Shown here: positions 1,591 to 20,619 of the stretch, in pieces
Position numbering within the stretch: the first letter of the stretch is position 1
Layout of the letters: every line of letters starts with the position of its first letter
NCBI GenBank assembly: GCA_913054485.1
Contig: CAJXHQ010000008.1
Location: 1-20,619 of the forward strand
Length of the DNA: 20,619 nucleotides
Direction of reading: 5' to 3'
Source: an uncultured Paracoccaceae bacterium
GTDB taxonomy: Bacteria; Pseudomonadota; Alphaproteobacteria; Rhodobacterales; Rhodobacteraceae
Translations under genes and position numbers: made by a program
Notes under the pieces: generated by a model
Database searches by the model: none
What the model was told of the DNA's origin: nothing
The model's input: the letters and a program-made list of their open reading frames with translations, nothing else

Positions 1591-1646
1591 ACCCTTGACG
1601 AAGCACCCGCGCCCGTGCCTCAAAGCGCGGCAGGGAGGACAGGCAT

Positions 1647-2381: not shown

Positions 2382-2406
2382 AAAACCTGCGATAGAAACA
2401 TGTTAA

Positions 2407-2431: not shown

Positions 2432-2448
2432 GGCGCGCAGCGGCAGGC

Positions 2449-2476
2449 TTGCGTTCTGCGCGAATCGCCCTATGTT
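2449..2476 (+). promoter_or_regulatory. Candidate sigma-70-type promoter of the zwf-edd-eda operon
   Basis: TTGCGT at 2449-2454 and TATGTT at 2471-2476 are separated by 16 bp, a plausible housekeeping promoter. Transcription would begin near 2483-2486, about 70 bp before the zwf ATG. The -10 box overlaps the LacI-type palindrome at 2473-2486. The prediction rests on motif match and position only. Confidence 0.45.
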
Positions 2477-2486
2477 AGCGATAACG
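2473..2486. promoter_or_regulatory. LacI-type operator candidate over the zwf -10 box (CceR-like)
   Basis: TGTTAGCGATAACG has perfect GTTA/TAAC arms around a central CG-containing tetramer, the usual layout of LacI/GalR-family operators. In Rhodobacter sphaeroides the LacI-family regulator CceR is known to control Entner-Doudoroff and central carbon genes and responds to a pathway intermediate. I recall its motif as similar to this one but cannot verify that here. Position over the -10 box fits repression. No regulator gene lies nearby. Confidence 0.5.
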
Positions 2487-2553
2487 GAAACGGGCGCTGC
2501 GGCCTCCACTCAAGCGACGCAGCACATGCCCCAGACGCGATCCGAGGCAAGAC

Positions 2554-3999: not shown

Positions 4000-4032
4000 C
4001 CCGCAGGCCGTGAACAGGAATAGGAACGCATC

Positions 4033-5841: not shown

Positions 5842-5845
5842 TCCC

Positions 5846-6493: not shown

Positions 6494-6495
6494 TC

Positions 6496-6519
6496 TTTCT
6501 GCCCCATTGCGGGCAGAAA
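6496..6519 (+). terminator. Hairpin after eda, probable transcription terminator
   Basis: TTTCTGCCC at 6496-6504 and GGGCAGAAA at 6511-6519 form a perfect 9-bp stem with a 6-nt loop, starting 2 bp after the eda stop codon. The A/T ends of the stem are typical of a terminator, but the T-tract after it is poor (ACCCCGCATTTG). The stem is symmetrical and could also stabilise the operon's 3' end. Confidence 0.55.
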
Positions 6520-6726
6520 CCCCGCATTTGATGTCGTGAAAATGACATCCTGCCGTTTTCCGGCTTGAGCGGGTGCGCCTTGCGCCCGACCATCTAGCCC
6601 CATGGAAAACTGCATCATTCCCAATCCCATGGATCGCCGCGCCACCGGATGCGATCTCGTCACTGCCTGACCGCGCTGCCCCTTTGACGGGGGTCTCTTG
6701 CGCGTATCAGACAGACGGATTGAAGA
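6520..6726 (+). promoter_or_regulatory. Gene-free stretch upstream of hyuA with a weak promoter candidate
   Basis: These 207 bases hold no supportable gene. TTGACG at 6684-6689 followed after 15 bp by TATCAG at 6705-6710 could be the hyuA promoter, but the spacing is short and the match is modest. An 8-bp direct repeat CCCATGGA occurs at 6599-6606 and 6626-6633. I see no strong palindromic operator. Confidence 0.25.
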
Positions 6727-8829
6727 ATGACGACACAACCTGCTTTGCGGCTCGCCATTGATATCGGCGGCACCTTTACCGACACCGTTCTGGTGCAAGG
6801 CGAAGACACCATCCTTGCCTCCACCAAGACGCTCACCACCCACCAGAACCCCGCGGACGGCGCCATGGAAGGCGCGCAGCGCGTCATGGGCACCGCCGGG
6901 CGCACGCTGGGCGAGGTAACCGGGTTCATCCATGGGACCACCCTGGCCACCAACGCGCTGATCGAACGGCGCGGCGCGAGTGTGGCCACGGTAACCACCG
7001 AGGGTTTCCGGGACATCTTGGAGATCGCCTACGAGCGGCGTTATTCCCAGTATGACATCAACTTGGAGAAACCCGACCTGCTGGTGCCGCGCGAACGTGC
7101 CCTGACGGTGCGCGAACGCATGTCGGCGGATGGCGGGGTGCTGATTGCGTTGGAAGAAGACGCCATCGCAGCGCTTCTGGCCGGCATCGACGCCAGCGGC
7201 GCAGATGCCATCGCCATATGTCTGATGCATGCCTATGCCAACCCCGCCCACGAACGCCGTCTGCGCGATGTGCTGACGGAGAAACGCCCGGGCCTTGTGG
7301 TCTCGATATCTTCCGATGTCAGCCCCGAAGCGCGCGAATTCGACCGGCTCTGCACCACGGTTGCCAACGCTTATATCCAGCCGCTAATGGAGACATATCT
7401 CGCGCGCTTCGCCGAACAGTTCGCGGGCGAGGGCCTGACCTGCCCGATCCTGATGATGACCGCCGGCGGCGGCATGTGCACGATTGAAACCGCCGCGCGA
7501 TTCCCGATCCGGCTGGTGGAAAGCGGCCCCGCTGGCGGCGCCATTCTGGCCGCGCGGATTGCCGCCCGCGCCGGGCTGGACGAGGTGCTGTCCTTTGACG
7601 TCGGCGGCACCACCGCCAAGCTATGCCTCATTGACAACGCCCGCCCGCAGACCTCGCGCCAGTTTGAGATCGCCCGGGCCGCGCGTTTCATCAAGGGTTC
7701 CGGCATGCCGGTGCGGATCCCGGTGATCGAGATGATCGAGATCGGCGCCGGCGGCGGTTCCATCGCCGCGGTGGACCGGCTGGGCCGCCTGACCGTGGGG
7801 CCGAAGTCTGCAGGGTCCGAACCCGGCCCCGCAGCCTTCATGCGCGGCGGTACTGAGCCCACAGTGACCGACAGCGACATCACGCTGGGCTACATCCGGC
7901 CCGAAACCTTTGCCGAAGGGCATATCCATATTGACCCCGAGGCCTCGAAACAGGCTCTAACAAAAGTCATTGGCTCCAAGTTGGATCTGGACGCTACTGG
8001 CTCTGCTGATGGGGTCAGCCGCATCGTGGATGAGAGCATGGCGTCGGCCGGGCGCATGCACGCGGTGGAATCCGGCAAGGATCTGGCCCCCAGGACGATG
8101 ATTGCATTCGGCGGCAACGGCCCGCTGCACGCCACCCGCGTGGCGCGCTCTGCCGGGGTATCCCGCATTGTGATCCCGCCCAATCCCGGTGTTGGCTCCG
8201 CTGTTGGCTTCCTCTATGCGCCGGTTAGCTTTGAGATCGTGCGCTCGCGCTACTCCATGCTGGACGGGCTGGATATTTCCGGCCTCAACGCTTTCTTCGG
8301 CCAGATGATCGACGAGGCCCGCACCGTGGTCGCGCAAGGGGCAGGCGATGCGCCGACACAGACGCTGCGGTCCGCCTTCATGCGCTACAACGGCCAAGGT
8401 CACGAGATCGAGATCGCCCTCCCGGACCGTGACCTCACCCAAGATGATGCCGGCTCTCTGACCCGTGATTTCGAGGTGGAATACGCCAAGCAATTCTCCC
8501 GCCCGGTGCCCGGCATGAAGATCGAGATCCTGAACTGGGCCGTGCGCGTCGCCACGCTGGAAGGCGACGTTCCGGACCTGCCAATGACGCCGGATCTGAG
8601 CACGCTGACGCCCGCGGTCAGAAAACCCATTACCTGCGATGTGGATGCCACCGAGAAGCAGGCCGCCATTGTGGCCCGCGACAGCCTTCGGGCCGGCGAC
8701 CGTGTTGAGGGGCCGGCGCTGATCACCGAGCCGCAGACGACCACGCTGGTGTCTTCCGACTTCTCGGCCCATGTGGATGCCATCGGCAATCTTGTCCTGA
8801 TCCAGGACCAGAAAGGAGGTGCCGCATGA
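6727..8829 (+). CDS. hyuA: Hydantoinase/oxoprolinase family protein, subunit A
   Basis: This 700-residue protein is the ATP-binding subunit of an HyuA/HyuB-type enzyme. The family includes ATP-dependent N-methylhydantoinase, 5-oxoprolinase and acetone/acetophenone carboxylases. It starts with the actin-like ATPase signature LAIDIGGTFTDTVL (residues 9-22), then HGTTLATNALIERRGA near residue 70, VESGPAGGAILAARIAARAG near residue 262, a second nucleotide-site motif SFDVGGTTAKLCL near residue 288, and EIGAGGGSIAAVDRLGRLTVGP near residue 340. Length matches the usual 680-720. The stop overlaps the next start as ATGA, and AAAGGAGGT precedes that start, so A and B are translationally coupled. Substrate is unknown: hydantoin, lactam or a carboxylation substrate are all possible. 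No biotin or acetone-carboxylase gamma-type subunit is visible. Confidence 0.92.
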   Translation: MTTQPALRLAIDIGGTFTDTVLVQGEDTILASTKTLTTHQNPADGAMEGAQRVMGTAGRTLGEVTGFIHGTTLATNALIERRGASVATVTTEGFRDILEIAYERRYSQYDINLEKPDLLVPRERALTVRERMSADGGVLIALEEDAIAALLAGIDASGADAIAICLMHAYANPAHERRLRDVLTEKRPGLVVSISSDVSPEAREFDRLCTTVANAYIQPLMETYLARFAEQFAGEGLTCPILMMTAGGGMCTIETAARFPIRLVESGPAGGAILAARIAARAGLDEVLSFDVGGTTAKLCLIDNARPQTSRQFEIARAARFIKGSGMPVRIPVIEMIEIGAGGGSIAAVDRLGRLTVGPKSAGSEPGPAAFMRGGTEPTVTDSDITLGYIRPETFAEGHIHIDPEASKQALTKVIGSKLDLDATGSADGVSRIVDESMASAGRMHAVESGKDLAPRTMIAFGGNGPLHATRVARSAGVSRIVIPPNPGVGSAVGFLYAPVSFEIVRSRYSMLDGLDISGLNAFFGQMIDEARTVVAQGAGDAPTQTLRSAFMRYNGQGHEIEIALPDRDLTQDDAGSLTRDFEVEYAKQFSRPVPGMKIEILNWAVRVATLEGDVPDLPMTPDLSTLTPAVRKPITCDVDATEKQAAIVARDSLRAGDRVEGPALITEPQTTTLVSSDFSAHVDAIGNLVLIQDQKGGAA

Positions 8830-10475
8830 GCACGCTATCAAACGCCCGCCTGCAAGTGATGTGGAACCGCCTTCTGGCTGTGGTCGAAGAGCAGGGCCAG
8901 ACCCTGATCCGCGCGGCCTTCTCGCCCATCGTGCGCGAATGCGGCGACATCTCCGCCGGGATTTTCGACGCCGAAGGCCGCATGCTGGCGCAGGCTGTCA
9001 CCGGCACGCCGGGCCATATCAACACCATGGCCGAGGCGGTGCTGCATCTGCGCGACCGCTTCCCGGTTGAAGCGATGAAGCCCGGCGACATCTACATGAC
9101 CAACGATCCCTGGCTGGCCTCGGGGCATCTCAATGACTTCCTGCTGATGATGCCAGCCTTCAAGGACGGCAAGGTTGTCGGTTTCACCTCCTGCACCTCG
9201 CATCTGGTGGATCTGGGCGGTCAGGGCATGGGGCCCGAGGGCTCCGACATCTACGACGAGGGCCTGCTGATCCCGCCTTGCAAACTGGTCGAGGAGGGCG
9301 AGCCCAACGCGCTGCTGATGGACATCATCCGCGCCAACAGCCGCGAGCCGATCGCCAACGAAGGTGACATCTACGCGCTGATCGCCTGCTGCGAGGCGGG
9401 TGTCACCCGGCTGGTGGAGATGATGGAGGAATTCCGCATCGGCGATCTGGAAGCGCTCGGCGAATATATCATCGAAACCTCCCGCCGGGGCACGCTGGAG
9501 GCCATCGCCGAGGTTCCGAACGGCACCTACAAGAACGTGCTGAAAATGGACGGCTACGAGAGCGAGTTGGAGCTGCACGCCACGCTGACAGTCTCTGATG
9601 CGGGGCTTCACGTGGATTTTGCCGGCACCTCGGGATGTTCCTCTAAGGGCATCAACGTGCCGCTGAACTATGCCACCGCCTATACCGTCTTTGGCCTGCG
9701 CTGCCTTGTCGGGCCGGATATCCCGAACAATGCGGGCTCGCTGGCCCCCTTTACAGTCGATGGGCCCAAGGGCTGCATCCTGAACGCGCAGCGGCCTGTG
9801 CCGGTGGCGATGCGCCACACGCTGGGGCAGGTGACGCCTGATCTGGTGCTCGGCTGCCTGCACCAGGCGCTGCCCGATCAGGTGCCCGCCGAAGGGGCCA
9901 GTTGCATGTTCGACCTGCCGATGCGCCACGCGCCGGAAGTGGCCCGCGACGGCGGCCGCGAGTTTGCCATCGAACCCGTGCACAACGGCGGCACAGGTGC
10001 GCGGCCCCATGCGGATGGTCTGTCGGCCACGGCCTACCCGTCGGGCGTCTTCGGCAGCCAGGTGGAAATCACCGAAGCCGTCGCCCCCGTGGTCATGTGG
10101 CGGCGCGAGCTGCGCGCCGATTCAGGCGGTGCGGGCAGATACCGCGGCGGCCTAGGCCAGCGGATCGAAATGACGTCGTCCAACGGCGCGCCCTTCATCG
10201 TCTTCCTGTCGGTGGAACGGCTGAAGTTCCCCGCACTTGGCCGCATGGGCGGGCAGCCCGGCGCGCCCGGGCGCATCCGCTTCCGCGACGGAACCGCAGA
10301 CATCCCCGGCAAGGGAGAGCTGCGGGTGGAAGGCCAGGACTATCTGATTTTTGAGACCCCCGGCGGCGGCGGCTTCGGCAGACCGGACCAGCGCGACCCG
10401 GATGCGCTGGCGCTGGACTTGAAACGGGGTCTGGTCACGGACGAAGGCGCCAAAGCCTATGGAGGTGTCAAATGA
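8826..10475 (+). CDS. hyuB: Hydantoinase/oxoprolinase family protein, subunit B
   Basis: This 549-residue partner of HyuA has the usual HyuB length and landmarks: RLLAVVEEQGQTLIRAAFSPIVRE at the N-terminus, DIYMTNDPWLASGHLNDFLL near residue 88, TSHLVDLGGQGMGPEGSDIYDEGL near residue 122, the central VPLNYATAYTVFGLRCL, then VMWRRELRADSGGAGRYRGG. It ends with the glycine-rich ETPGGGGFGRPDQRDP. Subunit B of this family carries the hydrolytic or substrate-binding part, with energy supplied by ATP hydrolysis in A (family knowledge). Its ATG lies within the hyuA stop (ATGA at 8826-8829), and its own TGA overlaps the aminotransferase start in the same way. GGAGGTG at 10461-10467 serves the following gene. 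Confidence 0.93.
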   Translation: MSTLSNARLQVMWNRLLAVVEEQGQTLIRAAFSPIVRECGDISAGIFDAEGRMLAQAVTGTPGHINTMAEAVLHLRDRFPVEAMKPGDIYMTNDPWLASGHLNDFLLMMPAFKDGKVVGFTSCTSHLVDLGGQGMGPEGSDIYDEGLLIPPCKLVEEGEPNALLMDIIRANSREPIANEGDIYALIACCEAGVTRLVEMMEEFRIGDLEALGEYIIETSRRGTLEAIAEVPNGTYKNVLKMDGYESELELHATLTVSDAGLHVDFAGTSGCSSKGINVPLNYATAYTVFGLRCLVGPDIPNNAGSLAPFTVDGPKGCILNAQRPVPVAMRHTLGQVTPDLVLGCLHQALPDQVPAEGASCMFDLPMRHAPEVARDGGREFAIEPVHNGGTGARPHADGLSATAYPSGVFGSQVEITEAVAPVVMWRRELRADSGGAGRYRGGLGQRIEMTSSNGAPFIVFLSVERLKFPALGRMGGQPGAPGRIRFRDGTADIPGKGELRVEGQDYLIFETPGGGGFGRPDQRDPDALALDLKRGLVTDEGAKAYGGVK

Positions 10476-11539
10476 TCCGCGCTGTATCCCATGTTGCTGC
10501 GATGGGCGCCTATGCGCTTGCCGATCTTGGCGGGCCGGACACGGTGTCGCTGGCCCAGAACGAAAGCGCCTTTCCCGCCAGTCCCGCGGCTATTGCAGCG
10601 GGTAAGGCTATGCTGGACCAGATGCCGCTCTACCCGGACCCGGAGTGGCCGGACCTGCGCGGGGCCATTGCTGAAACCCATGGTTTAGAGCCTGAAACCA
10701 TTCTCTGCGGGGCAGGTTCGATGGAGCTGATCGGCTGCCTGATCCGCGCCTTTGCGGGCGCGGGCGACCAAGTGCTGGGAACGGACTATGGCTATGCCTT
10801 TGTCGCCTCTGCCAGTGCCCAGGTGCAGGCGGTGTATGCGAAGGCGCATGAGGAAGATCTGACCGTCTCAGTCGACAATATTCTGGCCGCGGTGACATCC
10901 GCGACCCGCATCGTTTTTCTGTGCAATCCGGGCAACCCCACCGGCACGCTGATCCCCAATACAGAAATCACCCGCCTGCGCGACACCCTGCCCGAAGATG
11001 TGATGCTGGTGGTGGACCAAGCCTATGCCGAGTTCGCCGACAGGCTGGAAGACCCGGCGGAAATCTTCAATCTGGTGAAGCGAAGCGATACGGTTGTGAT
11101 GCGCACCCTATCCAAGGCCTACGGGCTGGCCGGTGCGCGGGCTGGCTGGGGCTATTTTCCGCCTGCCATTGCCGCAGAGGTGAGGAAGCTTCTGAACCCC
11201 AATAATATCTCCATCCCGTCGCAGGCCATGGCTGCTGCCGCCCTGCGCGATCAGGCGCATATGCGCGATGTGGTGGCCAAAACCGCCGCGATCCGCGATG
11301 GTTTTGCGGACGGCTGCCGCGCGTTGGGGCTGACTGTGCCGCAGAGCCACACCAACTTCGTGCTGATCCGCTTCGCCGATGCAGATGCCGCCACCCGCGT
11401 CGATGCGGCCTTGCGCCAGGAGGGCCTCTTGATGCGGGGCATGGGCGGCTATGGCCTGGCCGACTGCCTGCGCGCCACCATCTGTAGCCAACACGTCATG
11501 GACCGCGCCCTGACGGTTCTGAAAGGAGTGCTGAAGTGA
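10472..11539 (+). CDS. HisC-like class I/II PLP-dependent aminotransferase
   Basis: This 355-residue fold-type I aminotransferase resembles histidinol-phosphate aminotransferase. The PLP-binding lysine is K215 in TLSKAYGLAGARAGWGYF. The conserved NPGNPTGTLIPN and VVDQAYAEFAD segments and the GAGSMELIGCLIRAF motif near residue 85 are all present. Location inside a hydantoinase operon, rather than with his genes, suggests it acts on an amino or keto acid released by that pathway instead of in histidine synthesis (inference). It is coupled on both sides: its ATG overlaps the hyuB stop and its TGA overlaps the GTG start of the following gene. It could instead be a decarboxylase of the CobD type, but the sequence looks more like a transaminase. 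Confidence 0.85.
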   Translation: MIRAVSHVAAMGAYALADLGGPDTVSLAQNESAFPASPAAIAAGKAMLDQMPLYPDPEWPDLRGAIAETHGLEPETILCGAGSMELIGCLIRAFAGAGDQVLGTDYGYAFVASASAQVQAVYAKAHEEDLTVSVDNILAAVTSATRIVFLCNPGNPTGTLIPNTEITRLRDTLPEDVMLVVDQAYAEFADRLEDPAEIFNLVKRSDTVVMRTLSKAYGLAGARAGWGYFPPAIAAEVRKLLNPNNISIPSQAMAAAALRDQAHMRDVVAKTAAIRDGFADGCRALGLTVPQSHTNFVLIRFADADAATRVDAALRQEGLLMRGMGGYGLADCLRATICSQHVMDRALTVLKGVLK

Positions 11540-12276
11540 CCTACGCTCCCCGCGACACGGCCAAGATCGGCGTTCTGGTGCCCTTCACCAACACCAACCT
11601 GGAACCGGACCTGATGGCCATGTGCCCGCCCGGCTGCACGGTTCATTTCCAGCGCCTCGGCGGCTATGACGTGGATGAGGTCCCCGGCTCCGACCAGATG
11701 GCGGGCCTAGGCGCCTCCGATATCGCCCATGACCTGAAGATGATTTCCGGCGTGCGCCCGGCGGCGGTGCCTTATGGCCGCACCTCAGCCACGCTCACCC
11801 ATGGGCCGCCCTTTGACGCGGATCTGGCCGCTAAAATCAAAGCAGGCTCCGGCGCGCAGTCCATCACGGCCGCCGGCGCACTGGTGGCCGCGCTGAAGGC
11901 GCTGGGCATCACCAAGGCGGGCTTCTCCTCGCCCTACCTGGGCGAGATCAACACGCAGGCCATGGGCTTCCTTGCGGACAACGGCGTTGAGACCGTGAAA
12001 TGCGCCGATGTGGGCCGCGAGCTGGGCAACTACGGTCAGGGTGAGCTGACCCCGGACGAAGTGTTTGACTTGGCCCTGCAGGCCGATCATCCGGAGGCGC
12101 AGGCCATTGTCCTCAGCTGCACCGACATGCGCTCTGTCGAAGCCATCGAACGGGTGGAGGCCGCATTGGGCAAACCGGTGGTCACCTCCAATCAGGCGAT
12201 GATGTTTGTGCTGATGCGCGCGCTTGGCCTGCCGCGGCACGCGGGCCTGCCCGGTCAGCTGTTCGACCTCTTGTAA
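11536..12276 (+). CDS. Asp/Glu racemase superfamily protein, arylmalonate decarboxylase/maleate isomerase-like
   Basis: This 246-residue protein starts at GTG 11536, overlapping the aminotransferase stop as GTGA, with AAAGGAG at 11522-11528. It has the family's N-terminal KIGVLVPFTNTNLEPDL and two-domain alternating fold. The second catalytic cysteine is present as C195 in IVLSCTDMRS. At the first cysteine position, where racemases and isomerases have YxCTS, this protein reads YGRTS (residues 80-84), so Arg82 replaces Cys. Arylmalonate decarboxylase likewise keeps only the second cysteine (known for that enzyme), so decarboxylation or another single-thiol reaction is more likely than two-base racemisation. 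In the operon it could process a hydantoin, a malonate-like intermediate or a stereocentre; the true substrate is unknown. Confidence 0.8.
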   Translation: MTYAPRDTAKIGVLVPFTNTNLEPDLMAMCPPGCTVHFQRLGGYDVDEVPGSDQMAGLGASDIAHDLKMISGVRPAAVPYGRTSATLTHGPPFDADLAAKIKAGSGAQSITAAGALVAALKALGITKAGFSSPYLGEINTQAMGFLADNGVETVKCADVGRELGNYGQGELTPDEVFDLALQADHPEAQAIVLSCTDMRSVEAIERVEAALGKPVVTSNQAMMFVLMRALGLPRHAGLPGQLFDLL

Positions 12277-12323
12277 ATTCCAGCGGAAGGCGCGAGATTC
12301 GTCTCTGAACAACGGAGATCGCA

Positions 12324-12833
12324 ATGCGCGCCTTCATTGCCCTGCCGGTCACCGGCGCGGCCCTGGACGGTCTCGTCCGGCTTCAGCAGCAGCTTCCCGC
12401 AGGCCGCCCCCTGCCGGAGGAAAACCTGCACCTCACCCTGGCCTTCCTGGATGACCAGCCGGAGGAAGCCCTGGAAATGCTGCATGAAAACCTGGCGCTG
12501 ATCCGCGCCGCGCCCTTTGCCGTCCATCTGCATGGGTTAGAGATGTTCGGCAAGGCGCTTGCGGTCCGCGGCAGCCTCTCTGGGCCGCTTTCCGCTCTGC
12601 AACAGTCGGTCCAGACCGCAGCCCGCGCTGCAGGCATTCTTCTGCCGCGCCGCCGGTTCCGCCCGCATGTGACCTTCGCGCGGCTGACGGGCGCGGCACC
12701 TGCGGCCTATCTTGCCAAAAATGCCGCCGCTACCCTGCCGCCTTTGCAGGCCGACCGCTTCAGCCTCTTTGCCTCAAGCCTGCGCCCGCAAGGCGCATTG
12801 CATGAAGAGCTTGCACAATACCCCCTGTATTAG
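12324..12833 (+). CDS. thpR: RNA 2',3'-cyclic phosphodiesterase (2'-5' RNA ligase family)
   Basis: This 169-residue member of the 2H phosphoesterase superfamily has both HxTx motifs, HLTLAF with H36 and T38, and HVTFAR with H115 and T117. The spacing of about 79 residues is normal for ThpR/LigT. Family members hydrolyse 2',3'-cyclic phosphate ends of RNA and can join tRNA halves with a 2'-5' bond in vitro. The ATG is preceded by ACGGAG about 8 bp upstream. It lies 47 bp after the racemase-like gene in the same direction but has no clear functional link to the hydantoinase operon. It ends 65 bp before the convergent dehydrogenase gene. Confidence 0.92.
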   Translation: MRAFIALPVTGAALDGLVRLQQQLPAGRPLPEENLHLTLAFLDDQPEEALEMLHENLALIRAAPFAVHLHGLEMFGKALAVRGSLSGPLSALQQSVQTAARAAGILLPRRRFRPHVTFARLTGAAPAAYLAKNAAATLPPLQADRFSLFASSLRPQGALHEELAQYPLY

Positions 12834-12871
12834 AGACGAAACTGCGCGCTTTCATCTTTTCCGAAATGCTC

Positions 12872-12899
12872 CGGGGGTGAATTTAGCCCCGTCAGGGCT
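12872..12899. terminator. Weak hairpins between convergent genes thpR and ldh-like
   Basis: Two overlapping stems can form: CGGGG (12872-12876) with CCCCG (12887-12891), and AGCCC (12885-12889) with GGGCT (12895-12899). They lie between two convergent stop codons, which is where a shared terminator would be expected. Stems are only 5 bp and T-tracts are poor, so the call rests mainly on location. Confidence 0.25.
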
Positions 12900-13936
12900 C
12901 AAGCGGGGGCTGCGTCCCCGTCCCACAACGGCTGACCAACAGATGCCGCCGCAGTTTTCAGCCCCTGGATCACCCCATCCGGGAGGGTAATGGCCCCCGC
13001 CTCAAGGCAGGCCGCGCGGCGTTCGGCCTCCATGTCGCCGGGCATCCGGACCCGGTCAAACCCGGGCGCAGGCGGGGTGTTGCGGACGAGGGAGGAAAAC
13101 GCTGCCGCGCCGTCACGATAGATGTCCGGTGTCTGGAAAGCATCCGCACGAATGGCAATCATCAGCCAGTTGAACTCCCGTGCCGGCCCCAGCAGCGCAG
13201 AGCCGATCAGCTCCGCCATGATGCCCAGACCGCTGCCCTTTGCCCCCGCTGCCGGCAGCAGCGACCCGCCTGCGTAGAAGTCTTCGGGATCGGTGCTGGG
13301 ATTGCCATTCGCGTCTGTGATGCAGCCCTCGGGCAGCTCTGTGCCATTGGCGCGGGCGATGGCCACCTTGCCCGAAGCCACAGTGGAAATGGCAAAGTCA
13401 CAGACCGCCGGCTGGCCGTCCGCGCCGGGCAGGGCAAGGGCGTAGGGGTTGGTGCTCATCACCGGTTTGCTCCCGCCAAAAGGCACCACGTCAGACCATT
13501 TGTCCCGTCCCCCGCCGCCGGTGCAGAAGGCAAAGCAGCCGTCCCTGGCGGCCTGTTCGGCGTAGGCGCCGATCCGCCCGGTATGGCCGCAATTGGTAAT
13601 CCCGACCATGGCGATCAGCCCGGTTTTGGCGCGCGCGGTTACCTCGGCCAGGGCGTGCTCCATCGCGACGATGCCAATGCCGCCCTGACCGTCAACGGTC
13701 ACCGCATTGGGCGATAATTCCGTGACCCTGGGCAGGGCCTCAGGGATCAGAGCGCCATCCCTGGCCAGTTCCAGATACCAGCCCAGACGGTTCACCCCAT
13801 GGGAGGTAACACCGCACATTTCGGCGTCCAGAAGATGGGCCGTGACGGAGGCTGCATTGCCGGCAGAATACCCTCCGGCCTCAAAACAGCGCTGCAGGAA
13901 CGCGGCCAGCGCAAAGGTTGTGATCGTCACGGCCAT
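12899..13936 (-). CDS. Ldh_2 family malate/lactate/ureidoglycolate-type dehydrogenase
   Basis: This 345-residue NAD(P)-dependent oxidoreductase belongs to the LDH2/MDH2 family, which is unrelated to the classical Rossmann-fold enzymes and acts on 2-hydroxy acids, ureidoglycolate or diketogulonate. Visible landmarks are CGVTSHGVNRLGWYL (the catalytic His region, near residue 47), GITNCGHTGRIGAYAEQAA near residue 110, FGGSKPVMSTNPYALALP near residue 155, and GSGLGIMAELIGSALLG near residue 225. The CGGAG before the ATG supports the start. It is the last gene of a minus-strand set mmgE(truncated)-mttB-ldh, 21 bp after mttB. The substrate is unknown; a hydroxy acid made by the same pathway is plausible. 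Confidence 0.88.
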   Translation of the reverse strand: MAVTITTFALAAFLQRCFEAGGYSAGNAASVTAHLLDAEMCGVTSHGVNRLGWYLELARDGALIPEALPRVTELSPNAVTVDGQGGIGIVAMEHALAEVTARAKTGLIAMVGITNCGHTGRIGAYAEQAARDGCFAFCTGGGGRDKWSDVVPFGGSKPVMSTNPYALALPGADGQPAVCDFAISTVASGKVAIARANGTELPEGCITDANGNPSTDPEDFYAGGSLLPAAGAKGSGLGIMAELIGSALLGPAREFNWLMIAIRADAFQTPDIYRDGAAAFSSLVRNTPPAPGFDRVRMPGDMEAERRAACLEAGAITLPDGVIQGLKTAAASVGQPLWDGDAAPA

Positions 13937-13953
13937 AATCAGACTCCGTCAGA

Positions 13954-13976
13954 CGGTTCAGGGTTCCCCTGAACCG
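13954..13976 (-). repeat. Perfect hairpin spanning the mttB stop codon
   Basis: CGGTTCAGGG at 13954-13963 and CCCTGAACCG at 13967-13976 form a 10-bp perfect stem with a 3-nt loop. The mttB stop codon (13958-13960) is inside the stem, and the structure ends 17 bp before the downstream dehydrogenase start. It could stabilise the upstream message, partly terminate transcription or tune expression of the distal gene. There is no T-tract. Confidence 0.6.
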
Positions 13977-15496
13977 ATCTCTTCCTTGCGGCGCGCCACA
14001 TAGGCGTCCAGCTCCTCGCGGATGGCAGCATCCATCACCGGGGCCTCATAGTCGCGCAATGCCTGCTGCCAGAGCCCTGTGGCACGCTGCAGCGCGTCTT
14101 TGGCACCGGCCGCTTCCCAGTTCTCGAAGTTCTGCCAGTCCGACAGCATTGGGCGGTAAAAGGCCGTCTCGTAGCGGGCCATCGTGTGGTCCGCGCCGAA
14201 GAAATGGCCGCCTGTAGGCACCGATTGGATGGCGTCAAAGCCCAGCTCGTCCTCGTCGAACTTCATCGGCTTCAGGAACTCGATCATGTTCTGGATAATC
14301 TCCACATCCATGATGAATTTCTCATAAGACGCGGTCAGCCCGCCCTCCAGCCAGCCGGCTGCGTGGTAGACCATATTGGCGCCGCCCAAGACTGCGCCCC
14401 AGGAGGACATCATCGTCTCGTAAGCCGCCTGCAGGTCCACCGCGTTGGACGCGTTTGCATTGGAGGTCCGGTAGGGGATGCCGTAGCGCCGCGCCAGCTG
14501 GCCGCCGACGATATTGGCCTTGGCGTTCTCCGGCGTGCCGAAGGCGGGCGCGCCAGAGCGCATGTCGACGTTGGAGGTGAAGGAGCCATACATCACCGGC
14601 GTACCGGGATTGATCAGCTGGGTCAGCACCACGCCGAACAGGGCTTCGGCGTTTTGCTGCGCCAGGGCTGCGGGCAGGGTCACCGGGGTCATTGCGCCCA
14701 TCAGCGTAAACGGCGTGATCGACACCGGCTGGCCGTGTTCGGCCATGGCAATCAGCCCGTCGCCCATGGCGTCGTCAAACAGCCGCGGCGAGTTGACCGA
14801 GATGATGGTGATCACGCCCGGATCATCGCGCAATTCCTCAACGCTTTGACCACGGCTGATGGCCATCATGTTGATCCCGTCCATCGCCCGCCCGCGTCCA
14901 ATGGCGGTGCAGTGGAAGGACAGATCCGACAGGGTGATATTGGACAGGTAGGTGTCCAGATGCCGGTTGTTGGCGGGCAGCTCCATCGGTGCCATCACCT
15001 GGTTGCCGATGATGTTCACCGCATTGAAGTGATGCGCCAGTTTGATGAAGTTCTGATAATCCGCCAGGTTGCCCTGCCGCCGCCCGTTGATGCAGTCGTG
15101 CACATTGGGCGGGCCTGCGACCAGTCCGAAGGTGATGTTGTTGCCGCCCAGCGTGATCCGCTTGGCGGCGTTGCGGGCGCGCAGGGTGAAGGTCTGCGGC
15201 ACCGTCTCCGGCGCCTTTGCGACGATGCTTTCGTCCATGCGGATGGTCTGGGTGTCGCGGTCGACGATTGCACCTGCCGCCTCGAACAGGTCCATGACGT
15301 TGTCGCCCATCACCCGGATGCCGGCCTCGGACAGGATCCGCATGGATGTGGCGTGCAAGCGGTCCATCTGATCGGGGTTCAGCAGCTCGTAAGCCGGGTA
15401 GGTGTTCTGCACCTGTTGCCAGGGCAGCTGTTCGATGCTGCCGCCGGAGCGGGAGGATTTTCCGCGGCGTCCGCCGCCGCGTTTTTCGCGTGCCAT
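13958..15496 (-). CDS. MttB superfamily methyltransferase (non-pyrrolysine trimethylamine methyltransferase family)
   Basis: This 512-residue protein belongs to the MttB/COG5598 family. Characteristic segments are EAGIRVMGDNVMDLFEAAGAIVD near residues 55-77, PVMYGSFTSNVDMRSGAPAFGTPE near residue 300, GIPYRTSNANASNAVDLQAAYE, and VYHAAGWLEGGLTASYEKF near residue 390. Archaeal MttB uses a pyrrolysine encoded by an in-frame TAG. This gene reads through its whole length without one, so it is of the non-Pyl type, of which MtgB demethylates glycine betaine to a corrinoid protein (known). No corrinoid-protein gene is present here. The N-terminus is basic and glycine-rich (AREKRGGGRRGKSSRSGG), probably a disordered tail. 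It lies 18 bp downstream of the MmgE part. A methylated amine or betaine is the likely substrate class, with no specific one identifiable. Confidence 0.87.
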   Translation of the reverse strand: MAREKRGGGRRGKSSRSGGSIEQLPWQQVQNTYPAYELLNPDQMDRLHATSMRILSEAGIRVMGDNVMDLFEAAGAIVDRDTQTIRMDESIVAKAPETVPQTFTLRARNAAKRITLGGNNITFGLVAGPPNVHDCINGRRQGNLADYQNFIKLAHHFNAVNIIGNQVMAPMELPANNRHLDTYLSNITLSDLSFHCTAIGRGRAMDGINMMAISRGQSVEELRDDPGVITIISVNSPRLFDDAMGDGLIAMAEHGQPVSITPFTLMGAMTPVTLPAALAQQNAEALFGVVLTQLINPGTPVMYGSFTSNVDMRSGAPAFGTPENAKANIVGGQLARRYGIPYRTSNANASNAVDLQAAYETMMSSWGAVLGGANMVYHAAGWLEGGLTASYEKFIMDVEIIQNMIEFLKPMKFDEDELGFDAIQSVPTGGHFFGADHTMARYETAFYRPMLSDWQNFENWEAAGAKDALQRATGLWQQALRDYEAPVMDAAIREELDAYVARRKEEIGSGEP

Positions 15497-15514
15497 TTGT
15501 CTTGGTCTTTCTGG

Positions 15515-17533
15515 TCAGGCCGGATCGTAGATCAAGCGGCCGAGGTCGGAGAATTTCGAAGTGGGGTCGGTGAAAGAGAGCACCGCGTCGCGGATTTCTG
15601 CCGAGCGCGATTCGCCCAGTGAAGGCGAGGCAAACTCCATGAATTTGGCGGCCACATCAGCGTCATCCATCGGTGCTTCGGGGCCGCCGCGCGCATGCAC
15701 ATCGCCCGATGCGATGACGCGCCCGTCGGTGAGGGTCACGGTCACATCGGCGACCCGGCAGGCGGGGAACCGGTCCGAGTGTTTCTTGTCCTCAGAGACA
15801 GTAATGCGCTCGTGGATCGAAGCGACCAGCGGATCGCGCAGGCCGTCGCCGGAGATATGTTCCAGCCCGATGCGGCCATAAGCGGCCTGTGTCGCCACCG
15901 CGTAGCCCAATGAGTACTGCGCCTGACTGGTGGTTGCGGGCACGCCGGGGTACAAACAGGCGCTTTCGTGGAAGGTGTTGATATGGATCTGCGCCAGCTG
16001 CTCGTGGGTCAGCCCGTGTTCCATCATCACCTGCCGGATCGCGTCAATGGGCGCATGGGCCCAGCGGCAGATCGGGTAGGGTTTCACATATTGGTGCTCC
16101 ATCTGCCAGAAGGAGCCGAGGTCGTCCCAGTACTGCGCGACCCGGTCTTCCTCGATGGTGATGGCCGGTGCGCCGGTGAAGCCTTTCTCGGCCATGATGG
16201 CAGAAGACATCCCCACCATCGCGCCCCAGCCGGAGCCGTCGTGCAGCATCGACGGATTGGCGATCTCGCGCATCATCTGGCTGCGGGGGCCGTGGTATTC
16301 GGAAATACCGAAGCCTTCGCGCAGCTGCGCACGGGAATGCCCACGCATCCGGGCTGCCATGACCGTCACGCCCAGCGCGTTCCAGGCACCCGAGGTGTGA
16401 TAATCGCTGACCGTGTTGTGCAGCGAGATCGCGGCACGGCCCGCCACCTCGTAACCGATGGTGGTGATCGCCAGAGCCTCAAGGCCGGAAAAGTCATCGA
16501 CCGTTTCCGACAATGCGGCGATCGCTGGGATCACCACCACGCCGATATGGCCCTTGGTGGGGTAGTAGCCGTCGTGGCCATCCAGATTGTCGGTGGCGGT
16601 TGCCGCGGCAAAGGCTGCCCCCGCGGCGCTGACCTTGCGGCCGTCAAACATCATCCGGGCGGCGAACCCTTCGCCCGCGCCGTAAATGGCTGCGGAAGTA
16701 TCCCGCGCGATGCGGCCCGCGTCCATCGGACCGGCGCCGATGGTGATGCCCCGGTCATCGACCGTCACCGACTGCAGTTCCGTCAGATGGCCGATGAAGA
16801 CGATCGGGTCGAGGAGGCGCATCTGCTTCGTCACCCAGATGCCGACGTCGGTCGAGCCGGCAACGATGGTGGCCTTCGGTTCCGCCGCGATGATCTCGGC
16901 AAGAGCGGCCATCGAGGCCGGCACGATCGAGCGGGCGCCATCCCTGGTGACGACGATGGTTTCGGGATGGGCGCGGATGTCCCAGAGCCTGGCGGCGATC
17001 TCGCTGCGGTCGCGCTCGAGCGGGTCGAAGAGCGAACTCGGGCGTTCCGCGCCCACCTGTTCGGCGGCCTTGATGATCGGCTCGTAGCCGGTGCAGCGAC
17101 AGAGGTTGCCCTGCAGCGCGCTTTCGATCTCGGCGCGCGACGGCGCATCGTTGGAGAGCCACAGGCCGTAGAGCGACATCACGAAGCCCGGCGTGCAGAA
17201 GCCGCATTGCGAGCCGTGCTGGTCGACCATGGCCTGCTGCACCGGATGCAGCGTGCCGTCCTTGGCGGCCAGATGCTCCACCGTCACCACATGGGTGCCG
17301 TGCAGCGAGCCGAGAAAGCGGATGCAGGCATTCACCGTCTCGTAGCGCAGCAGGCCCTCGACCAGGCGGCCGACGAGCACCGTGCAGGCGCCGCAGTCAC
17401 CCTCGGCGCAGCCTTCCTTGGTGCCGGTCAGCCGGCGCTTCAGGCGCAGGTAGTCGAGGAGCGTCTCGGTCGGGCCGAAGCCGCCGAGCGAGATCTCCTC
17501 GCCGTTGAGGATGAAGCGGATTGCGTCTGTCAT
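15515..17533 (-). CDS. Chimeric ORF: truncated XdhA-like subunit fused in frame to N-terminally truncated MmgE/PrpD protein
   Basis: This single 672-residue frame joins two unrelated families. Residues 1 to about 268 are the small subunit of a xanthine-dehydrogenase-type enzyme: the plant-type 2Fe-2S cysteines C42, C47, C50 and C70, the second cluster C110, C113, C145 and C147, and then the start of the FAD domain (ATIVAGSTDVGIWV, residues 221-234), cut after TIGAG. A full XdhA continues for about 200 more residues. From residue 269 to the end it is an MmgE/PrpD-family protein (DNLDGHDGYYPTKGHIGV near residue 315, YPICRWAHAPIDAI near 480) lacking roughly the first 60-70 residues. The two halves fit different neighbours: XdhA goes with rhizobial bdhA upstream, and MmgE goes with mttB downstream. 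I regard the fusion as a joint between sequences, not a functional protein. Confidence 0.8.
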   Translation of the reverse strand: MTDAIRFILNGEEISLGGFGPTETLLDYLRLKRRLTGTKEGCAEGDCGACTVLVGRLVEGLLRYETVNACIRFLGSLHGTHVVTVEHLAAKDGTLHPVQQAMVDQHGSQCGFCTPGFVMSLYGLWLSNDAPSRAEIESALQGNLCRCTGYEPIIKAAEQVGAERPSSLFDPLERDRSEIAARLWDIRAHPETIVVTRDGARSIVPASMAALAEIIAAEPKATIVAGSTDVGIWVTKQMRLLDPIVFIGHLTELQSVTVDDRGITIGAGPMDAGRIARDTSAAIYGAGEGFAARMMFDGRKVSAAGAAFAAATATDNLDGHDGYYPTKGHIGVVVIPAIAALSETVDDFSGLEALAITTIGYEVAGRAAISLHNTVSDYHTSGAWNALGVTVMAARMRGHSRAQLREGFGISEYHGPRSQMMREIANPSMLHDGSGWGAMVGMSSAIMAEKGFTGAPAITIEEDRVAQYWDDLGSFWQMEHQYVKPYPICRWAHAPIDAIRQVMMEHGLTHEQLAQIHINTFHESACLYPGVPATTSQAQYSLGYAVATQAAYGRIGLEHISGDGLRDPLVASIHERITVSEDKKHSDRFPACRVADVTVTLTDGRVIASGDVHARGGPEAPMDDADVAAKFMEFASPSLGESRSAEIRDAVLSFTDPTSKFSDLGRLIYDPA
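16715..16745. other. Joint between Rhodobacteraceae-like and Rhizobiaceae-like sequence
   Basis: Protein homology changes from XdhA to MmgE/PrpD between the codons for TIGAG (ending near 16730) and PMDAGRIA (beginning near 16729). Each half matches its family right up to this point with no linker. Both families could supply a glycine-alanine stretch here, so a few bases of shared sequence may have guided either a recombination or a misassembly. Confidence 0.7.
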
Positions 17534-17565
17534 GCTGTCTATTCTCTTTCGGGCCGTCTGTTCTC

Positions 17566-18342
17566 TTATTGGGCGGTCCAGCCGCCATCGATCGAAATAT
17601 GCGTGCCGGTGATCTGCCGCGCCGCGTCGCTGGCAAGAAACACGGCCGTGGCCGCGACTTCCTCGATGGCGACGAATTCCTTCGTCGCCTGCAGCCGCAG
17701 CATCACCTCGGTCTTCACCTCATCCTCACTGATGCCGCGTTCCCGGGCCGTATCCGGGATCTGGCGTTCGACGAGCGGCGTCAGCACATAGCCCGGGCAG
17801 ATCGCGTTGACGGTAATCCCGAATTCGGCAAGTTCCAAGGCTGCTGTCTTCGTAAAGCCTAAAATACCATGCTTGGCAGCCACATAGGCGGATTTGTAGG
17901 GGGAGGCCACCAGCGCATGCGCCGAGGCCACGTTGATGATGCGGCCCTTGCCCTTCGCCTTCATCAGCGGGATCGCCGTGCGGGTGGTGTGGAAGGCGCT
18001 CGTCAGGTTGATGGCGATGATGCGGTCCCACTGCGCGGTGGGAAAATCCTCGATCCTGGCGACATGCTGGATGCCGGCATTGTTGACCAGAACGTCGACC
18101 GAGCCGAAGTTTGCCGCCGCCGTGCCGATCAGGTCTTCGATCTCCTCCGGCTTCGTCATGTCGGCGCCATGGTAGATCACCCGGCCGCCGCCCAGCACCT
18201 CCAGTTCGCGCCGCACCGCCTCGATCGCGTCCGGCTCACCGAAGCCGTTGATCACCACGTGGCAAACCTCGACCGCAAACGCCTTTGCAATGCCGAGCCC
18301 GATCCCGCTGGTGGAGCCGGTGACGACGACGGTTCTGGACAT
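17566..18342 (-). CDS. bdhA: 3-hydroxybutyrate dehydrogenase
   Basis: This 258-residue short-chain dehydrogenase oxidises D-3-hydroxybutyrate to acetoacetate with NAD+, a step in polyhydroxybutyrate breakdown. The nucleotide loop TGSTSGIGLGIA spans residues 8-19, NNAG is at 87-90, and the catalytic triad is S140, Y153 and K157 in SPYKSAYVAAKHG. NGFGEPDAIEAV near residue 32, HGADMTKPEEI, GYVLTPLVERQIPDTA and the C-terminal GTHISIDGGWTAQ are typical of bacterial 3HBDH, especially rhizobial ones. The ATG at 18342 follows GGGAGGTCAGGC. The xdhA-like ORF begins 32 bp downstream. In Sinorhizobium meliloti bdhA is followed by xdhA in one operon (published knowledge), which supports a rhizobial origin of this block. 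Confidence 0.93.
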   Translation of the reverse strand: MSRTVVVTGSTSGIGLGIAKAFAVEVCHVVINGFGEPDAIEAVRRELEVLGGGRVIYHGADMTKPEEIEDLIGTAAANFGSVDVLVNNAGIQHVARIEDFPTAQWDRIIAINLTSAFHTTRTAIPLMKAKGKGRIINVASAHALVASPYKSAYVAAKHGILGFTKTAALELAEFGITVNAICPGYVLTPLVERQIPDTARERGISEDEVKTEVMLRLQATKEFVAIEEVAATAVFLASDAARQITGTHISIDGGWTAQ

Positions 18343-18359
18343 GCCTGACCTCCCAAATC

Positions 18360-18380
18360 GCGGTGTTCTTGTTGCACCGC
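18360..18380. promoter_or_regulatory. Inverted repeat in the bdhA leader
   Basis: GCGGTG at 18360-18365 and CACCGC at 18375-18380 are perfect 6-bp arms around 9 bp, 18 bp upstream of the bdhA start codon. It could be an operator or a leader hairpin. The arms are short, so chance is possible. Confidence 0.3.
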
Positions 18381-18450
18381 AGTGATTTGCCGAAGTTATG
18401 CGCAAATGGGAGGCGCTGGCAATCGGGCGTGGGTATTGGAGCGGTCGCCG

Positions 18451-18936
18451 TCAGATCATCTGGAACGTGCCGGTCCGCTCAAAGGCCTGGAAGGCGTCGA
18501 GGCTCCGACGCATGCTGGGAAGCGTGTCGGGCAGGGCGTCCAGGGGGAACCAGTCCACCGCCTTGGATTCCGCGTCGGTGACGGTCGCCACGCCATCGAA
18601 ATCCTCGGTGTAGAACATCATCGCGAAGAACTGGCAGACATCGCCGTTGGGGAAGGTGATGGTTTCGAACTCTGGATTGCTGGCAAACCCGAAGGGTCGG
18701 AGGTTCCAGATGCGCAGGCCGGTTTCCTCCATCGTCTCCCGGACGGCGACCGACATCAGGTCCTCTCCCTCTTCCGCGTTACCACCCGGAATACCCCAGC
18801 GATCGAAGTCGCTCCGATGTTGCATGAGCACGCAACCGTCCTTTCGCCTCACCACCACGCGAACGCCCGGAACCAGGACTAAGGCGGAGCCGATCCTGGC
18901 GCGCAATTTTCCGAGATAGCTTTCCGCAAAGCTCAA
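18451..18936 (-). CDS. NUDIX hydrolase with TTG start
   Basis: This 161-residue protein has a complete Nudix box (G-x5-E-x7-RE-x-x-EE-x-G-x) in GNAEEGEDLMSVAV followed by RETMEETGL, near residues 72-94. Nudix enzymes hydrolyse nucleoside diphosphates linked to another group using Mg2+ held by the box glutamates. The particular substrate is not identifiable. The start codon is TTG at 18936; it is preferred because CGGAGGG lies exactly 7 bp upstream and the N-terminus then reads SFAESYLGKLRARIG before the first beta strand of the fold. Similar proteins start WGIPGG near the box, as seen here. It lies 108 bp upstream of bdhA, with no obvious functional link. Confidence 0.88.
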   Translation of the reverse strand: MSFAESYLGKLRARIGSALVLVPGVRVVVRRKDGCVLMQHRSDFDRWGIPGGNAEEGEDLMSVAVRETMEETGLRIWNLRPFGFASNPEFETITFPNGDVCQFFAMMFYTEDFDGVATVTDAESKAVDWFPLDALPDTLPSMRRSLDAFQAFERTGTFQMI

Positions 18937-18992
18937 TATCGTACCCTCCGGTCATCGACGCCAAACGCGCCGAAGAGCACCGATACAGGAAA

Positions 18993-19017
18993 CCTGGCGG
19001 CTTTTCGATCCGCCAGG
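18993..19017 (-). terminator. Rho-independent-like terminator after the ridA-family gene
   Basis: CCTGGCGG at 18993-19000 and CCGCCAGG at 19010-19017 form a perfect 8-bp GC-rich stem with a 9-nt loop, 31 bp after the ridA stop on the minus strand. In that direction it is followed by TTTCCTGT, a short and imperfect T-tract. Confidence 0.6.
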
Positions 19018-19048
19018 ACAGGCAATTGTTGCCTTGTATCGCAGCCCG

Positions 19049-19447
19049 CTAGCTGCCTTGCGGAATGCGGGCGATGACCTTGATCTCGAAATCGAAGCCG
19101 GCCAGCCAGTTGACGCCGACGGCCGTCCAGTTTGGGTAGGGCGGCGCCGGGAAGACGTGGTTCTTGACGGCCATGATCGTCTCGAACTGGTTTTCGGGGT
19201 CCGTGTGGAAGCTCGTGACGTCGACGATGTCGTCGAGGCTGCAGCCTGCCGCCTCCAGGACGGCCGTCAGGTTGTCGAAGGCGCGTTCCACCTGTGTCCG
19301 GAAATCCGGTTCCGGCGTCCCGTCCTCGCGGCTGCCGACCTGGCCGGAGACAAACAGGAGGTCGCCGGAGCGGATGGCAGCGGAATAGCCGTGCGCTTCG
19401 TAGAGTGCATGTCGGTTGGCGGGGAAAATGGCCTGACGCTGGGTCAT
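19049..19447 (-). CDS. RidA family protein (YjgF/YER057c/UK114)
   Basis: This 132-residue member of the Rid superfamily has YSAAIRSGDLLFVSGQVG near residue 20, QVERAFDNLTAVLEAAGCSLDDIVDVTSFHTD near residue 52, and a C-terminal FEIKVIARIP. Classical RidA hydrolyses reactive 2-aminoacrylate imines using a conserved arginine in a P-x-R-x-x-V stretch. Here that stretch reads PNWTAVGV without the arginine, so imine deaminase activity is doubtful and another Rid subfamily is more likely. The ATG at 19447 has AAAGGAG 8 bp upstream; an in-frame ATG at 19615 is rejected because the extension would run through the operators and promoter. It is regulated by the palindromes at 19512-19573, probably through a TetR-type repressor (inference). 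Confidence 0.88.
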   Translation of the reverse strand: MTQRQAIFPANRHALYEAHGYSAAIRSGDLLFVSGQVGSREDGTPEPDFRTQVERAFDNLTAVLEAAGCSLDDIVDVTSFHTDPENQFETIMAVKNHVFPAPPYPNWTAVGVNWLAGFDFEIKVIARIPQGS

Positions 19448-19511
19448 GTCTGGCTCCTTTCGTGGGGCTGCCGGAAAACCGCCGACCTTCACACCGGTCG
19501 CTCGATTTGAT

Positions 19512-19524
19512 ATACGGTTCGTAT
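19512..19524. promoter_or_regulatory. Palindromic operator 1 (TetR-like)
   Basis: ATACG-GTT-CGTAT has perfect 5-bp arms and lies at the expected transcription start of the ridA-family gene. It shares its half-site with two further palindromes upstream, centred 26 and 49 bp away. Confidence 0.6.
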
Positions 19525-19526
19525 GT

Positions 19527-19555
19527 AAACTAGAAACATACGCGACGTATGTCAA
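19527..19555 (-). promoter_or_regulatory. Promoter of the ridA-family gene
   Basis: On the minus strand TTGACA (19555-19550, a perfect -35) and TAGTTT (19532-19527, a weak -10) are separated by 17 bp. Transcription would start near 19520, about 70 bp before the ATG. The spacer contains the 17-bp operator at 19536-19552. Confidence 0.6.
19536..19552. promoter_or_regulatory. Palindromic operator 2 (TetR-like), between -35 and -10
   Basis: ACATACG-CGA-CGTATGT has perfect 7-bp arms around 3 bp. It occupies the spacer between the -35 and -10 boxes of the ridA-family promoter, a classical repressor position. The half-site ATACG recurs in operators 1 and 3. Confidence 0.7.
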
Positions 19556-19560
19556 TTCAG

Positions 19561-19573
19561 ATACGCAGGGTAT
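19561..19573. promoter_or_regulatory. Palindromic operator 3 (degenerate)
   Basis: ATACG-CAG-GGTAT matches the pattern of operators 1 and 2 with one mismatch in the right arm. It is centred 23 bp from operator 2, so the three sites are nearly evenly spaced by two helical turns or slightly more. Confidence 0.4.
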
Positions 19574-19620
19574 GTGGATTTTGGAAGGCCATCCGAGAGC
19601 TTGACATATACGCAAGCGGT

Positions 19621-19750
19621 ATTGCCGCCATAGCGAACAAACTCAGCGCCTGGAGATGGTGTCGAACCACGAACACCATAAAATATTACCTGCATCCTAA
19701 GCAACCCCTACCATAAATTACTATTCCTCAATACCTTCTATCTAGCCAAT
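19621..19750. other. Gene-free transition into AT-rich foreign sequence
   Basis: Base composition falls from GC-rich to AT-rich inside this stretch, most sharply around 19,675-19,690. Reading rightward, GTG at 19659 opens a frame that closes at 19698 after only 13 codons. This is where the regulator gene divergent from the ridA-family gene would be expected to begin. No complete gene, terminator or repeat is visible. Confidence 0.5.
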
Positions 19751-20619
19751 CTATGCTGGCGTGAAAGATAAATCCACTGTACTCAGTTTAGACGTATCTG
19801 ACACGATACGCTTGCGGATAATCACACCCGTTGACATAACGGCATATACATAATCGCCGGCAATAACCATTCTGACAACATCACCAAAGAAACTGTGGTG
19901 GGATTCATCATAGCCGGCCTGAAAATCATTGTTTAATCTATGTACGACGCCTGACGACTGAGCGATAAAGTACTCACCATTAACGGTCGGTAAGGTGACG
20001 ATATCCGTCACTGAGCCACCGAGGTTAGCCGCAATATCATTTAAGCTGCCGCCAAGGGAAGCATCGTCAATGACGGCTGCGCTTTCTTCATCACCATCTT
20101 GGCTTCCCGCCACAACGAACTGATTCGATACTGAGTTAAATGTAATACCTTTATTAAACTCTGAGTAGCTATCGAGGCCATTCGAAGTCAAACTGAATGT
20201 GCTACCCGCGTCAGTCGAGTAATAATACTTGGTCGGGTCGCTCGTCGATATCCCCATAAGATTATTCGCGCCATCGGACGCAAATTGCGCAACGGTATTA
20301 GAAGAAGGTAGTCCTGGTGGCGTAACCGAGCCCGCATTAGTTGCTTGCCAATTAGTGGCGTCATCAGTGCGCAAAATAAAGCCTAAACTTTCTATCGTTT
20401 CTTGCACACCCATATAAAAATAACCACTATTATAAACTAAAGAGTTTCCAATCCAGCGAGCTTCCCCCCCATCAAGCTGAGAAGGTAACACCGGCACAGT
20501 CCATGTCGCACCATCCGTCGAAACCATCAAGTCATCGGTTCCCACCGTCACGAACACACTATTATTGACCGCTACCGCACGTAAATTACCATCAACCCCA
20601 TCACCATCGGTTAATGATG
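19751..20619 (-). CDS. Hypothetical propeller-like protein with Asp-box motif (partial, N-terminus off right edge)
   Basis: The minus-strand frame is open from the right window edge to a TAG at 19751-19753, about 289 codons. A GTG at 20557 exists but the frame continues above it (ending ...GNLRAVAVNNSVFVTVG), so that is not a convincing start. The protein is rich in Ser, Thr, Gly, Asn and Asp and built of short strands. STDAGSTF, encoded at 20195-20218, fits the Asp-box consensus SxDxGxTF/W of sialidase/BNR-type propellers, and VSTDGATW near 20520 is a related copy. Blades such as NGEYFIAQSSGVVHRL and GDYVYAVMSTGVIIRK recur at roughly 40-50 residue spacing. It is probably an extracellular or outer-surface protein. 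No function can be assigned. Base composition is far lower in GC than all other genes here. Confidence 0.7.
   Translation of the reverse strand, partial: SLTDGDGVDGNLRAVAVNNSVFVTVGTDDLMVSTDGATWTVPVLPSQLDGGEARWIGNSLVYNSGYFYMGVQETIESLGFILRTDDATNWQATNAGSVTPPGLPSSNTVAQFASDGANNLMGISTSDPTKYYYSTDAGSTFSLTSNGLDSYSEFNKGITFNSVSNQFVVAGSQDGDEESAAVIDDASLGGSLNDIAANLGGSVTDIVTLPTVNGEYFIAQSSGVVHRLNNDFQAGYDESHHSFFGDVVRMVIAGDYVYAVMSTGVIIRKRIVSDTSKLSTVDLSFTPA

Follow-up and report, generated by a model that had tools for sequence, protein, structure and literature searches.

Does the 672-residue open reading frame described here encode a genuine fusion of XdhA, the small subunit of xanthine dehydrogenase, with a protein of the MmgE/PrpD family, or do its two halves owe their union to the way in which the contig was built? 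The window analysed is an entire contig, C8, with a length of 20,619 bases. The draft genome to which it belongs (G000) comprises 3.84 Mb in 692 contigs and is 75% complete and 1.3% contaminated. Domain matches confirm the earlier claim that a single open frame changes family near position 16,730. Residues 5-268 match XdhA (positions 1-261 of the 468 of the TIGR02963 model) with a score of 372.6 bits, which lies under the curated cut-off of 467 and falls short of a full-length match. The [2Fe-2S] domains are present (Fer2_2 at 109.6 bits, over its cut-off; Fer2 at 20.2 bits, slightly below its cut-off of 21). FAD_binding_5, by contrast, is matched only at positions 1-71 of 170 (the best stretch being residues 203-268, profile positions 6-71), meaning that the frame lacks a complete FAD-binding domain and that XdhA is cut within it, as had been proposed. 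The MmgE/PrpD match falls between residues 252 and 653 (MmgE_PrpD_N and MmgE_PrpD_C), where PF03972 scores 82.6 bits over positions 22-230 of 244 and PF19305 scores 110.7 bits, both over cut-off. Its N-terminus is not intact either: 36 residues of the relative P0002 are absent from the frame, fewer than the 60-70 originally estimated, given that the heptapeptide GITIGAG at the junction corresponds to residues 37-43 of this 447-residue protein. The features on either side of the junction are collected in Table 1.

Table 1. Coordinates of the features of the window, with strand and the basis on which each was placed.
Feature	Position	Strand	Basis or remark
Roseobacter-group part of contig	1-16,730	.	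576-12,267 and 13,960-16,729 match G001
mttB-family gene	13,958-15,496	-	adjoins mmgE also in Leisingera plasmids and G001
Fusion ORF, 672 aa	15,515-17,533	-	open reading frame
mmgE/prpD 3' part, Roseobacter-type, without codons 1-36	15,515-16,750	-	G001, 85% DNA; P0002, 91% protein
Joint 1: 20 nt coding GITIGAG, third base of last codon outside	16,731-16,750	-	identical to P. pelagicum xdhA
Rhizobial piece	16,731-19,592	.	99.86% identity to P. pelagicum R1-200B4 JOKI01000002
xdhA 5' part, codons 1-268, Pseudorhizobium pelagicum	16,731-17,533	-	DNA identity
bdhA, 3-hydroxybutyrate dehydrogenase	17,566-18,405	-	family match; 99.3% to L016
NUDIX hydrolase gene	18,451-18,936	-	family match; 100% to L016
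Rid/L-PSP family gene	19,049-19,615	-	100% to L016 over residues 11-188; listed ORF start past joint 2
Third piece	19,588-20,619	.	46.5% GC
ORF 3' part running off contig end, 288 codons in contig	19,751-20,617	-	third piece

The DNA to the left of the junction resembles that of a same-genus Roseobacter-group genome (G001), with 82% identity over 576-12,267 and 85% over 13,960-16,729; the two stretches correspond to separate places on one G001 contig, and neither 1-575 nor 12,268-13,959 has a long match in that genome. The zwf product encoded at 2,554-3,999 is closest to a 483-residue protein (90% identity) and then, among the named matches, mostly to Roseobacter-group proteins. Taken together, these matches indicate that positions 1-16,730 are mainly Roseobacter-group DNA. 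The MmgE part of the frame is Leisingera-like, with 91% and 83% protein identity to P0002 and P0004, respectively, although its first 20 nucleotides are those of the joint itself and may stem from either parent. Its counterpart in Leisingera thetidis is the plasmid gene OKQ63_RS21730, which has mttB for a neighbour just as the window does, and identity to L. thetidis across mttB and most of mmgE amounts to 81.6% at the DNA level. In L. thetidis, the genes for hydantoinases A and B, an aminotransferase and a racemase are followed on the opposite strand by mttB and mmgE, and then by a LysR gene. The window keeps this order of families, with two genes added (one for a LigT/2'-5' RNA ligase, the other of the Ldh_2 family), as far as codon 37 of mmgE, where it departs, and unlike the L. 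thetidis locus it has neither the first 36 mmgE codons nor the LysR gene that follows. Gene names that go beyond family matches are those we presume to apply. Do the absent first codons of mmgE and the gene adjoining them occur elsewhere in the draft? A 4.8 kb query of G001 DNA covering them matched, in its mmgE part, the window alone, the other matches in the draft being weak (64-82%) or short; this absence says little, because the draft is 75% complete.

The two added genes deserve a comment of their own. They occupy positions 12,276-13,957, between the racemase-like gene and mttB, which are neighbours in L. thetidis and lie ~295 kb apart on one contig in G001. The best match of the Ldh_2 product among 25 relatives reaches 43%, and a short dispersed repeat (12,846-12,926) within this interval recurs with 78-93% similarity at several sites in G001 and on other contigs of the window's own genome. 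This gene order might result from rearrangement, from the gain of genes or from yet another joint.

To the right of the junction, the picture is markedly different. When the XdhA part was used to scan GTDB species genomes, the cultured marine rhizobium Pseudorhizobium pelagicum R1-200B4 (JOKI01000002; L016) emerged at a protein identity that rounds to 100%, with one residue differing, and the runner-up, P. tarimense, reached 84% over 16,731-18,428 only. At the DNA level, the match to R1-200B4 extends over 2,863 alignment columns and is broken by three mismatches and a single gap; one of the mismatches, at 16,840, is the only one in the xdhA part and alters one residue. The match starts sharply, base 16,730 already being different, and since the gap lies ~5 bases from the right end, clean identity ceases at ~19,587. 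This DNA identity assigns the 2.86 kb to the right of joint 1 to P. pelagicum, at strain level. In P. pelagicum itself, xdhA is intact and encodes 490 residues, of which the window retains 268 codons, i.e. the 5' part of the gene. Comparison of the DNA on each side thus assigns adjacent pieces to different organisms, with identity stopping at the joint.

The rhizobial piece is in turn bounded by a second joint at ~19,588, which the original prediction missed. Here the match to P. pelagicum stops, and the 1,032 bases that remain have a GC content of 46.5%. Because the 88 bases that precede this joint are AT-rich as well (41% GC) and still match P. pelagicum, it was placed by the end of identity and not by GC content alone. 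What could the source of this low-GC end be? Its open reading frame has no protein homologues at E <= 0.001. The segment 19,588-20,619 has no other match in its own genome or in G001, none among plasmids by protein or DNA, and none among phages (searched by DNA) or viral contigs; against 299 genomes of the phylum, its own included, it produced, besides the window itself, one 43-residue match at 49%. Since the second joint opens low-GC DNA beyond the Roseobacter and P. pelagicum pieces, a single contig, judged by base sequence, combines at least three sources. Oligonucleotide composition agrees with these boundaries. The tetranucleotide correlation with 19 sampled contigs of the window's own genome is 0.985 for 1-8,000 and 0.979 for 8,001-16,730, whereas 16,731-19,587 correlates at 0.863 with that genome versus 0.953 with the DNA flanking the P. 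pelagicum locus, a reference from which the homologous piece was left out; for 19,588-20,619 the correlation with both is ~0. A survey of 19 further large contigs out of the 692, covering the first 20 kb of each, turned up no 500-base bin below 51% GC.

Why, then, should the reading frame stay open across joint 1? In-frame continuity had been regarded as a one-in-three accident, but it need not be one, for the joint sits on a word that XdhA and the closest MmgE relatives have in common. GITIGAG occupies residues 262-268 of P. pelagicum XdhA and residues 37-43 in all eight MmgE relatives tested, a set picked from among the best matches. It is the longest word shared by P. pelagicum XdhA with any of the eight; no other word of at least six residues is shared, and the only other one of five, AALAE, occurs in four of them. 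When P0002 was shuffled 2,000 times, a shared seven-residue word never arose and a six-residue word did so 30 times. The location of the joint on this particular word favours joining guided by identity and disfavours random ligation. A stretch probably common to the two genes, and read as codons in one and the same phase in each, would leave the frame open. How long is the identity on which such joining would depend? Of the 120 MmgE relatives listed, 22 have GITIGAG, among them all of the best seven and 15 of the best 24; frequent alternatives are GITIGSG (20) and GITIGAT (7), the latter seen in L. thetidis MmgE as well. The exact 20 nucleotides were encountered at 10 of the 139 loci compared, five of them the window itself and five rhizobial, and thus in no Roseobacter mmgE among these 139. 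The congener agrees with the stretch at 17 of 20 nucleotides, and from the codon usage of the left part the chance that all six full codons would equal those seen is ~0.09. For these reasons (partial conservation of the word, 17 of 20 nucleotides and ~0.09), the stretch truly common to both parents may be shorter than 20 nucleotides; if, on the other hand, the Roseobacter parent had a leucine codon CTG before GITIGAG, it would measure 21 and not more. Viral contigs contained no exact match to the joint sequence.

A real fusion gene might be expected to recur in independent genomes, which the original prediction had named as one of the findings that would speak against a chimera. None came to light among the matches listed. 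The 120 protein matches listed, of 8,000 scored, are 405-471 residues long, none exceeding 471, and none is a fused protein; nor is there a fusion among the matches listed for sets of 40, 393 and 384 other genomes, which overlap one another. The six matches with the longer overhangs past the joint were inspected. Four of these (G1008, G846, G577 and G664) continue as plain XdhA, the one in G007 (query residues 6-323) is a small subunit with a stop codon ahead of a separate large subunit, and the one in G451 (query residues 20-91) is a plain MmgE. A literature search on a fusion protein of xanthine dehydrogenase and MmgE found nothing.

Considered together, these observations suggest, with a probability that we put at roughly 0.85, that the fusion frame is an artefact of contig construction, in which Roseobacter and P. 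pelagicum reads were joined at a short shared stretch and a third source was then appended. Most likely, in other words, the frame is not a gene fusion and the contig is chimeric, as the original prediction preferred; strain-level identity on the right, genus-level identity on the left, the second joint and the existence of intact parent genes all support this reading. In the scenario that we envisage, a mixed sample would have contained a Roseobacter-group bacterium alongside a P. pelagicum strain, and reads from the two would have been joined at no more than ~20-21 nucleotides coding for GITIGAG, on the assumption that those 20 nucleotides were present at the joint in the Roseobacter parent too. 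The shared stretch, lying in the same coding frame in mmgE and xdhA, would leave the frame open, and ~2.86 kb further on the growing contig would have been joined once more, to low-GC DNA of the third source. The joint would on this account have arisen when an assembler crossed over on the short shared word rather than in the wet laboratory, and the assembler is most likely what made the chimera; ~20-21 bases is a usual minimum word length of de Bruijn-graph assemblers. Precedents exist, in that one report describes chimeric contigs arising from misassembly (PMC8201837) and another speaks, for simulated viral metagenomes, of chimeric contigs at every taxonomic level (PMC3901335). The former also calls misassemblies relatively rare, which we count against an artefact, together with the partial conservation of GITIGAG among the MmgE relatives listed. 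That organisms of the kinds required do live together is suggested by part of a study of Mediterranean seawater enrichments, where P. pelagicum R1-200B4 showed full-coverage recruitment and Roseobacters were present too, and where the bins mentioned include an unclassified alphaproteobacterial one at 61.1% GC and unclassified gammaproteobacterial ones at ~41% GC, one of which, at 40.9%, came from the enrichment with full-coverage recruitment (PMC4916215). However, the assembly described there used K = 70-100, too long for a crossing on 20-21 nucleotides, and what that part of the study shows is the co-occurrence of such organisms only; it does not thereby identify the source of the contig (PMC4916215).

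Could the molecule nonetheless have been chimeric before it reached the assembler? The joint might then have arisen when a polymerase changed templates at the shared motif, in the course of library amplification or of multiple displacement amplification, or through ligation of two fragments. A change of template would explain the position of the joint on GITIGAG equally well, given that polymerases switching templates likewise exploit short shared sequence, and the presence of three sources within one contig would fit a laboratory origin. Plain ligation, however, would not be expected to hit upon the sole seven-residue word that the two proteins share, and a rare chimeric molecule would normally be outvoted by true reads unless coverage was very low, so that we regard a laboratory chimera as unlikely. 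Considerably less credible is a real and very recent recombination event, in which a Roseobacter cell would have taken up a ~2.9 kb P. pelagicum fragment by transformation or from a gene transfer agent and thereby acquired an in-frame xdhA-mmgE fusion. Such an exchange would at least have had the opportunity, considering that P. pelagicum R1-200B4 and Roseobacters come from the same Mediterranean enrichments, to judge from the part of the study concerned (PMC4916215), and contig C342 of the draft carries a stretch 88% identical to P. pelagicum. Against it speaks what lies at the far end: had a rhizobial fragment been inserted into the Roseobacter genome, the start of mmgE and its neighbour should be met on its right, but instead of a return to mmgE codons 1-36 and the LysR gene, as seen in L. 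thetidis, unrelated low-GC DNA unlike either genome follows to the end of the contig. Moreover, homologous recombination would ordinarily call for a longer shared stretch than 20-21 nucleotides, the fusion has no second representative among the matches listed, and with the FAD domain and the N-terminus of MmgE both cut, a working product would not be expected. We thus find it very hard to believe that a Roseobacter cell integrated 2.9 kb of P. pelagicum DNA, beside other foreign DNA, by way of a motif common to unrelated genes. The idea of a selected and functional molybdenum-hydroxylase/MmgE enzyme, the least plausible of all, can invoke the open frame of 672 codons, but it has to reckon with an FAD_binding_5 match that ends at position 71 of 170, a TIGR02963 match that stops at position 261 of 468 with 372.6 instead of 467 bits, an MmgE part deprived of 36 residues and the fact that none of the 120 listed protein matches is longer than 471 residues.

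What is the significance of a chimera made, in all likelihood, by an assembler? As in the interspecies chimeric metagenome contigs described in parts of the literature (PMC8201837; PMC3901335), pieces of different organisms stand here in one contig, but unlike such contigs in general, this one keeps the frame open at the joint and mimics a fusion gene. Where the shared word lies in coding DNA and in the same phase, gene-calling software would predict a protein with two domains; the contig illustrates neatly how such chimeras can pass for fusion genes. The fused frame most likely does not represent a real protein, and the distrust voiced earlier towards any annotation as a fused molybdenum-hydroxylase/MmgE protein is borne out by the intact xdhA of P. 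pelagicum and the intact mmgE of Roseobacter relatives. The contig also serves as a warning that neither function nor gene transfer should be read from it, and ~3.9 kb of the draft Roseobacter-group genome can be marked as foreign.

As to further rhizobial DNA in the draft, P. pelagicum DNA from past either joint has no near-identical match there except short repeats, and a relative of it at 67-70% identity resides on contig C315. An xdhA-like gene on that contig (L098; positions 1,022-1,732), with 51% identity to the XdhA part of the window, is perhaps the Roseobacter's own. An exact match of 36 nucleotides between contig C342 and P. pelagicum, considered as a second copy of the joint, was rejected in that it proved to be a dispersed P. 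pelagicum repeat. On C342 (L131), positions 3,199-4,521 are 88% identical to P. pelagicum and positions 2,931-4,254 are 82% identical to G001; this contig also bears a repeat frequent in P. pelagicum. Its make-up may reflect contaminating rhizobial DNA in the bin, a transfer of genes or a further joint.
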